From the NCBI GenBank assembly GCA_025963465.1, contig JAOQAP010000060.1:1-63410 (forward strand): a DNA stretch of 63,410 bases, read 5' to 3'. A model generated the notes under the pieces. The model ran no database searches, was not told where the DNA came from, and saw only the letters and a program-made list of their open reading frames with translations. Position numbers and translations under genes: made by a program. The stretch is from Flavipsychrobacter sp. GTDB taxonomy: Bacteria > Bacteroidota > Bacteroidia > Chitinophagales > Chitinophagaceae. This document shows positions 27,155 to 28,649 of this stretch, one piece after another. Positions within the stretch are counted from its first letter, which is position 1; each line of letters begins with the position of its first letter.

Positions 27155-27841
27155 TTATTCCTTATGGCTGTCTGCTACTCCTTCCAATATAGCGTGGCAT
27201 AGCGCATTCAGCTTTGTATCGTCAGTAAGTTGTTTCATCTGCTCTTTGTTCTTTATGTCTCCTATCTCTATCAGCACGCTCGGGGCATTATTGCTGCGCA
27301 GCACATACAGGCTTTTTTCACTTGGTGCTTTGCATTGCGTCCATTCCGTACTGGCAAGATGCTGGTATATGGCCACGGCCAGGTCTTCGCTTTTCTTTGC
27401 CTGTGCATTTTTATTGTTGATGGCAATATCAAATGTTCCTTTACCTGCGTCCTGTCCCGGCTGGTTGTCTATATGCACCGAAATGAAATCATCGGCTTTC
27501 CATTTATTAGAGCGTTCTACCCGCTCAGTCAATGACACTGTTTCATTCCCGGTTCTGGTCAGGTGCACTTCAATATTGTGCTCCGGTGCTAGCTCACCCA
27601 GGCGCTTTGCAACCTTCAGGTTCAGATCCTTTTCTATCAGCGACCCTGAACTGGTACCATGATCTGTACCGCCGTGTCCGGCATCTACTACCAGTACTAT
27701 TTTCTTTGTAGTAGCTATGGGCGCATGTTTATGTTCTTTCCGTGGAGTGAATGAAAAAATAAACACACTACCTATAACCAGCGGCAATACTCCTGCCTTT
27801 CTCAAAAAGGACATGCTTGTTTTATTGTTTGTTTGTAGCAT
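27155..27841 (-). CDS. N-acetylmuramoyl-L-alanine amidase (Amidase_3)
   Basis: Zinc amidase that cleaves the bond between N-acetylmuramic acid and the peptide stem of peptidoglycan. The 228 residues begin with a membrane anchor or signal segment (VLPLVIGSVFIFSF). Zinc ligands are visible in VVDAGHGG, the SLIEKDLNLKVA glutamate and ISVHIDN, and the catalytic glutamate is in VLIEIGDIKNKEQ. A tandem operator resembling BlaI/MecI sites lies at its promoter, suggesting control by cell-wall or beta-lactam stress; the regulator is not in the window. Confidence 0.9.
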   Translation of the reverse strand: MLQTNNKTSMSFLRKAGVLPLVIGSVFIFSFTPRKEHKHAPIATTKKIVLVVDAGHGGTDHGTSSGSLIEKDLNLKVAKRLGELAPEHNIEVHLTRTGNETVSLTERVERSNKWKADDFISVHIDNQPGQDAGKGTFDIAINNKNAQAKKSEDLAVAIYQHLASTEWTQCKAPSEKSLYVLRSNNAPSVLIEIGDIKNKEQMKQLTDDTKLNALCHAILEGVADSHKE

Positions 27842-27886
27842 AGTCGATCTGCATTTTATGAGTGAAGAAATGAATTAAATACTTAA

Positions 27887-27938
27887 AACTACATTTATAG
27901 TTCAAATGTAAAACTATATTTTTAGTTTTACAAAATTA
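27887..27938 (-). promoter_or_regulatory. Amidase promoter with tandem BlaI-like operator dyads
   Basis: Two dyads of the same form AACTA-N6-TAGTT lie 25 bases apart centre to centre. The upstream one on the minus strand (27908-27931) is a perfect 9-base repeat, GTAAAACTA/TAGTTTTAC. The other is at 27887-27902. A -7 element TAatTTTG (27938-27931 on the minus strand) abuts the perfect dyad, so a bound repressor would cover the transcription start. The shape resembles BlaI/MecI operators (ACTACA/TGTAGT), but the regulator is inferred. Confidence 0.6.
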
Positions 27939-27989
27939 TTTAAGAAATTTTTTTTGGCAGACAGTGCATTTGTGATCAAAAAAATAAAA

Positions 27990-28019
27990 GGAGTGCAAGT
28001 ATTACAATACTTACACTCC
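27990..28019 (-). terminator. Intrinsic terminator after the sigma-factor operon
   Basis: GGAGTG-c-AAGTATT-ac-AATACTT-a-CACTCC forms a near-perfect 30-base hairpin. On the minus strand it is followed by CTTTTATTTTTTT. It lies 24 bases past the stop of the membrane protein gene. Confidence 0.8.
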
Positions 28020-28043
28020 CTTGAAAACTTTACTGGGTAATGC

Positions 28044-28649
28044 TTACAGGTCTTTTCTAAAAGCTTCCGTTTCTTTCAGGTTCTCTAGTATATTATTCAG
28101 GTTGTTAAGGTACAGCCTGCGGTACAACACAACAGAAAAGATAATGCCCAATATAAGGGAGACGACAAGTTTTGCGAGATGGTCGGCTGCACTCTCATGC
28201 CTCACCCACCTGTAGACGAGTATATAGGCCGCTGGAGCAACGAGGAACAACGAAAGAAGCCCTATAAACCGTTCCCTGAGGATAAACAGCTTAAAGCGTT
28301 GGGTCTTGTTCGCAGTATCTGTAATATTCCCTGCGCTGATGTCTATGCCAGACAGCCACCTCAGCTTGTATATGCCCCATACCAGTGTGGCGATAAATGC
28401 CACCATAACGATGATGTAGGACACGATCATTTCCGGCCGGCCTCCCAACTGGTTGATCATAAGTACAAAGATCGCAAAGGCCAATAGTGTGACTGAACCT
28501 CCCAGGTACTCCGCGTTCTTTATCTTTTCCAGAGCACTGTTCGATTTATCTTTTAATATGCGGCTAACAAGCTGTTCATTCAGTGTGCTCATTTTTTTTA
28601 GTTCTTTTTCGTGTGCCTGCCACAGGCTTTTCATTGATTCCAGTTCCAT
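28044..28649 (-). CDS. Membrane protein downstream of an ECF sigma factor (possible anti-sigma factor)
   Basis: A 201-residue protein with a soluble helical N-terminus (ESMKSLWQAHEKELKKM) and four hydrophobic segments near residues 50-66, 75-95, 128-145 and 160-175. It begins 13 bases after the sigma-factor gene on the same strand and is followed by a terminator, so the two form an operon. In Bacteroidota such partners often act as membrane-bound anti-sigma factors, but no zinc-binding anti-sigma motif is present, so that role is inferred. Confidence 0.7.
   Translation of the reverse strand: MELESMKSLWQAHEKELKKMSTLNEQLVSRILKDKSNSALEKIKNAEYLGGSVTLLAFAIFVLMINQLGGRPEMIVSYIIVMVAFIATLVWGIYKLRWLSGIDISAGNITDTANKTQRFKLFILRERFIGLLSLFLVAPAAYILVYRWVRHESAADHLAKLVVSLILGIIFSVVLYRRLYLNNLNNILENLKETEAFRKDL

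Follow-up and report, generated by a model that had tools for sequence, protein, structure and literature searches.

In the 63,410-nucleotide stretch of Flavipsychrobacter DNA analysed here (referred to below as the window), we find a pair of tandem dyads that is a putative BlaI-type repressor operator, located at the promoter of a gene encoding a free-standing amidase of the Amidase_3 family. The locus probably derives from an operon of the blaI-blaR type. With blaI and all but a remnant of the M56 protease domain gone, the promoter and operator of that operon would now drive a periplasmic amidase. To judge from its sequence relationships, the amidase seems to have begun as the ectodomain of a receptor, to have become detached from it, and to remain under the operon's own switch. 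The features on which this reading rests are collected in Table 1.

Table 1. Features of the amidase locus in the window, in order of position
Feature	Position	Strand	Remarks
Free-standing amidase of the Amidase_3 family (228 aa) bearing an N-terminal membrane/signal segment	27155..27841	-	Pfam PF01520, E 9.5e-40
M56-tail fossil in the 5' leader, FISSLIKCRST, versus FFSSPIKRRLT in receptors	27842..27874	-	Shares the reading frame of the amidase and directly abuts its ATG
Proposed deletion junction (TAA with a few AT-rich bases) separating operator and M56 fossil	27875..27886	-	Receptor coding homology ends and operator homology begins
Promoter-proximal operator dyad (putative), AACTA-N6-TAGTT	27887..27902	.	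Overlaps predicted transcription start (~27898)
Predicted -7 element TACATTTG, between the dyads	27903..27910	-	TAnnTTTG kept in nearly all homologous promoters compared
Upstream operator dyad (putative), 10-base arms	27907..27932 (core 27912-27927)	.	Sits between -33 and -7
Predicted -33 element TTTG, 20 nt from the -7 element	27931..27934	-	Most homologous promoters keep TTTG immediately 5' of the first dyad

The initial annotation had described two AACTA-N6-TAGTT dyads 25 bases apart, one of them a perfect 9-base inverted repeat. Both dyads are exact (AACTACATTTATAGTT for the promoter-proximal and AACTATATTTTTAGTT for the upstream copy) and their centres are 25.0 bp apart; the inverted repeat is indeed perfect, although its arms (TGTAAAACTA-N6-TAGTTTTACA) run over 10 bases, one more than was claimed. 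A lone exact dyad is not rare, with nine occurrences genome-wide versus 14 for the reversed control pattern, and was therefore dropped as a means of searching for a regulon; one-mismatch dyads proved useless for this purpose (115 versus 349 in the control). A site on contig C105, a lone dyad within a reading frame that has no partner dyad, was counted as chance. Only the tandem arrangement is informative: four copies are present in the 4.18-Mb genome (a draft assembly of 277 contigs, 97.5% complete with 2.5% contamination) versus none for the control, and the tandem appears in 0 of 300 first-order simulations of the window. Searching with the core pattern TAGTTTTANNTTTGAACTA returned exact matches in the window and on contig C142 only, the copy on contig C133 with two mismatches, and a flat background at three mismatches; this pattern misses the copy on contig C174, whose spacer is shorter by one base.

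The window amidase promoter is one of these four loci. On C142 the tandem stops three bases before the start of the surviving blaI gene (P0003, L014:8513-8872; Penicillinase_R, PF03965, E 1.2e-28), and the second gene there (P0001) encodes an M56 domain followed by a C-terminal Amidase_3 domain. On C174 the tandem is found immediately 5' of a gene encoding a Reg_prop beta-propeller. Propeller-type genes are located directly 3' of the class-1 receptor gene in the relatives G091, G213, G210, G224 and G229, which suggests that the C174 gene once belonged to such an operon and left it, taking a copy of the operator along. On C133 the tandem lies approximately 126 bases 5' of a gene for a 926-aa outer-membrane beta-barrel, which is followed by a gene of the Porph_ging family (GLPGLI-type). 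G219 alone among the relatives compared has barrel and Porph_ging genes beside the receptor, and a convincing tandem was found in 0 of 24 loci with orthologous outer-membrane barrel genes in other genomes; the barrel part of the regulon is not conserved across genomes. We rejected the possibility that C142, C174 and C133 are foreign contigs, as their GC and tetranucleotide profiles agree with those of the window (correlation 0.90-0.94, versus 0.75-0.82 for the relatives' loci). C142 also carries, near the blaI operon (L014:246-5307), a row of genes encoding an nSTAND ATPase, a caspase-domain protein and a patatin phospholipase, possibly an anti-phage or cell-death module.

The predicted promoter elements occupy a consistent position relative to the dyads. 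The promoter consensus of the phylum Bacteroidetes is TTTG at -33 and TANNTTTG at -7 (PMC6847099), and the window promoter reads TTTG-N20-TACATTTG, matching the primary-sigma pattern of -33 TTTG and -7 TAnnTTTG spaced by about 19-20 nt. When homologous loci are aligned along the direction of transcription, TTTG precedes the first dyad and TAnnTTTG falls between the dyads, 19-20 nt apart; a few loci match more weakly (e.g. C133, which has TTGG, and G174). The first dyad would accordingly be placed between -33 and -7 and the second over the predicted start. The string TAatTTTG, previously taken as an exact -7 element, is present (minus strand, 27938-27931) but is not the -7; it is better read as the -33 element, because some 20 homologous promoters keep its TTTG and not the leading TA. 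Further upstream, between the end of the gene at 28044-28649 and the amidase promoter, a 17-nt inverted repeat with a 2-nt loop (27987-28022) is probably the terminator of the upstream gene.

The tandem is called a BlaI operator because it is conserved at the starts of blaI genes. Among the receptor operons of the genus plus G091 that have readable DNA 5' of blaI, it is found at the blaI start in 19 of 19 (C142 and 18 relatives), and the inverted repeat ACTA-N6-TAGT of BlaI/MecI operators is present at blaI's own promoter. A pattern search across the family found the tandem in 31 of 200 genomes, in a sample where the reversed control pattern also matches about 20 times, and the argument is thus carried by position and promoter elements and not by the raw count: in 27 of the 30 family loci fetched, genes for BlaI and an M56 protein lie directly 3' of the tandem. 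The earlier proposal that the dyads are operators of the BlaI/MecI type is borne out in this respect, and they are also kept 5' of operons encoding the orthologous amidase domain, where their conservation was to be sought.

Pairs of blaI and M56 genes, which the initial annotation expected elsewhere in the genome, are indeed encoded, and the pair on C142 bears the same tandem at its blaI start. The genome holds four BlaI homologs, of which that on C142 belongs to class 1 and those on C277, C31 and C239 are more distant from it. At C142 the repressor gene is located beside that of a membrane protease of 535 aa (PF05569, E 2.7e-16) with the HEXXH motif HELIH, an arrangement characteristic of BlaI/BlaR1 systems; its ectodomain is not a penicillin-binding domain but Amidase_3 (PF01520). 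The M56 plus Amidase_3 architecture is observed in 29 of 29 family receptors scanned, with HEXXH and the three zinc ligands invariant throughout, and the receptor query has whole or partial matches in 197 of 200 family genomes. The catalytic Glu of the amidase domain is kept in 26 of the 29 receptors, one of the remaining three being without that stretch. In class-1 receptors, including that of C142 (I480), a non-acidic residue replaces this Glu, which is retained in G091, the earliest branch of the class; it has also been lost in G221, a class-2 representative. Some variation in arrangement was noted among these systems. About a dozen family receptors (L056-L085) add TonB_C and/or TonB-receptor Plug domains, which is odd for an inner-membrane receptor, and on C277 several close AACTA/TAGTT-type dyads in another arrangement (L016:6280-6355) lie 5' of a blaI gene whose M56 partner bears TonB_C. 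In G205 the receptor gene is followed by a further gene that encodes a stand-alone amidase of 215 aa, so that amidase domain and receptor adjoin (L120:6111-8305), and in G210 the receptor gene is in two overlapping frames (L115:6132-7762), through a genuine frameshift or a fault in the assembly.

The zinc of Amidase_3 enzymes is coordinated by two His residues and a Glu; a second Glu either acts in catalysis or contacts the metal through a water molecule (PMC3852659, PMC8496864). Alignment with the solved amidases 4rn7 and 5emi predicts H56, E70 and H123 as zinc ligands and E192 as the catalytic residue of the window protein, whose active site would therefore be complete, and the earlier identification of the gene as encoding a peptidoglycan amidase holds on the strength of its Pfam match (Table 1). 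No cell-wall-binding domain was found in the protein by Pfam.

Several observations suggest that this amidase descends from a receptor. It shares 35% identity with the C-terminal half of the C142 receptor. In the tree it is sister to the receptor ectodomains of G212 and G219 (support 97/95), nested within a class-2 receptor clade whose other members are all receptors (that of G221 is cut by a contig end). Its origin as a recent duplicate of the C142 ectodomain is ruled out by the tree, in which grouping with C142_rec has a p-AU of 8e-74, and the other free amidases of the genus (G208 and G209) are more distant and without the operator. A tblastn search with the C142 receptor gave a match in the window that begins at residue 249 and continues through the amidase ATG up to 27877, with one TAA. 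Where receptors continue from FFSSPIKRRLT into MLQ, the window has the fossil stretch directly before its ATG. The stretch is short (33 nt), yet 7 of 12 residues match, a level that shuffled sequences reach in 9 (identity) or 27 (score) of 200,000 trials (P approximately 5e-5 to 1.4e-4), and 25 of its 33 nt are identical to four receptors (G219, G202, G214 and Flavipsychrobacter). Since the amidase nests among receptors and has an in-frame M56-tail fossil beside the operator, we read it as the ectodomain of a second receptor. If some 1.1 kb, comprising blaI and the greater part of M56, were lost, the autoregulated promoter would be fused to the amidase domain, with operator, M56 tail and amidase left in the order observed. 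No class-2 blaI is left in this draft assembly of 277 contigs, which at 97.5% completeness could miss one. The flanking genes of the window differ from those of class-2 receptors, and synteny gave no case for an in-place deletion: the only close match to the neighbourhood, in G200, has an apparent signal peptidase I gene after the sigma-hypothetical pair and no amidase. Partial duplication or transfer together with the operator is equally possible.

If the dyads are BlaI operators, the amidase gene might nevertheless be what is left of a defunct receptor operon, itself in decay and under regulation that serves no function. This would be compatible with an origin by truncation and with the leader, in which a stop codon in frame and the degraded end of the receptor persist; it would also be compatible with the lack, among the other genomes sampled, of any orthologous free amidase that has the operator. 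We consider decay unlikely, however, as the amidase frame is open and its four active-site residues are kept at 56% identity to the nearest relatives, and as both dyads, the -33 and the -7 are intact although drift would have eroded them. The choice of repressor is a separate matter. The dyads could be bound by another member of the BlaI family (from C277, C31 or C239) or by a dyad-binding protein outside that family, given that there are four BlaI homologs, that one exact AACTA-N6-TAGTT occurs upstream of the C277 gene, and that half-sites are alike across the BlaI family (PMC7253601). Against this, C142 alone among the blaI genes of this genome has the tandem with the TAnnTTTG spacer, and the class-2 BlaI proteins of relatives are 74-80% identical to that of C142, versus 46% for C277 BlaI and 30% for C31 BlaI, making a different repressor very improbable.

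The initial annotation tied the amidase to a BlaR1/BlaI-like system, in a version where a beta-lactam-responsive system induces it. The tie itself is supported by the tandem shared with the C142 blaI-M56 pair; the anatomy of a beta-lactam receptor is lacking. BlaI and M56 homologs do occur in the genome, and BlaI systems elsewhere respond to beta-lactams (PMC7593790), but the receptor that shares the operator has an Amidase_3 ectodomain, and penicillin-binding, transpeptidase and beta-lactamase domains are absent from all four M56 proteins scanned against Pfam, out of five in the genome (the fifth is C31:13356). As judged from these domains the beta-lactam link is unsupported, and we regard induction of this kind as quite improbable; beta-lactams could act indirectly through damage to the cell wall.

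We favour instead regulation of the window amidase by the C142 system. Considering the position and conservation of the dyads, C142 BlaI would occupy both in the resting cell and block RNA polymerase. The amidase-fold ectodomain points to peptidoglycan as the thing sensed, and the receptor may meet a peptidoglycan-derived signal with this domain in the periplasm; a dipeptide from peptidoglycan can also be a direct ligand of BlaI and MecI (PMC3305447). On the model of its homolog BlaR1 (PMC7593790), the M56 domain, which has an intact HEXXH motif, would then likely inactivate and remove BlaI. The four promoters share the operator and may open together, inducing the blaI-receptor operon, the window amidase, the C174 beta-propeller, and the C133 barrel with its Porph_ging (GLPGLI-type) neighbour. 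The free amidase would cleave peptidoglycan and could thereby feed back, with either sign, on the signal of the receptor. More tentatively, and with a probability we place a little short of even, the BlaR1-type family of the Chitinophagaceae may sense by means of an amidase fold that is split here between a dead-amidase sensor and a free enzyme, the two being joined into a cell-wall feedback loop by the BlaI operator they have in common.

As far as the open literature shows, the component parts are known, and the receptor architecture and the conversion of an ectodomain to an enzyme are new: neither an M56-amidase fusion nor a receptor ectodomain turned enzyme under its old operator was found in the open literature searched, though reports may exist elsewhere. 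An amidase-fold ectodomain would offer a concrete answer to what BlaI-M56 systems sense outside beta-lactam resistance, namely peptidoglycan or its fragments. The window locus suggests that a single event may suffice to add a target to a regulon: once the regulator and protease are lost, the autoregulated promoter stays joined to the sensor domain. The C142 receptor, with a predicted dead site, and the free enzyme, with a predicted live one, form a natural pair for separating sensing from catalysis.

The C142 system resembles BlaI/BlaR1 and MecI/MecR1 of Staphylococcus and Bacillus licheniformis in having a PF03965 repressor with a PDB match to MecI, an M56 HEXXH membrane protease encoded just after blaI, and paired dyads over the promoter, with predicted autoregulation of blaI. 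It differs from BlaR1 and MecR1 in that the ectodomain is Amidase_3 and not a class-D beta-lactamase-like penicillin sensor, and from BlaI/MecI systems in that no beta-lactamase or PBP2a target was seen and the operator is also found at amidase, propeller and barrel genes. In Clostridium thermocellum, the portions consulted of a DAP-seq and EMSA study of BlaI_0696 and BlaI_1845 (PMC8457756) report experimentally mapped GTCTAT/GACTAT inverted repeats, two pairs per target, and make no mention of an amidase-domain receptor. From those portions, the two systems are alike in having inverted-repeat half-sites, two pairs per promoter, and regulons of very few targets, the operon of the repressor among them (predicted in the present case), and they differ in phylum and promoter type. 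With the Amidase_3 N-acetylmuramoyl-L-alanine amidases CwlV, AmiC, Rv3717 and CwlD the window protein shares the H/E/H ligands and the catalytic Glu; unlike these enzymes, it appears to be receptor-derived, its leader corresponding to what was probably the last membrane segment of the receptor.
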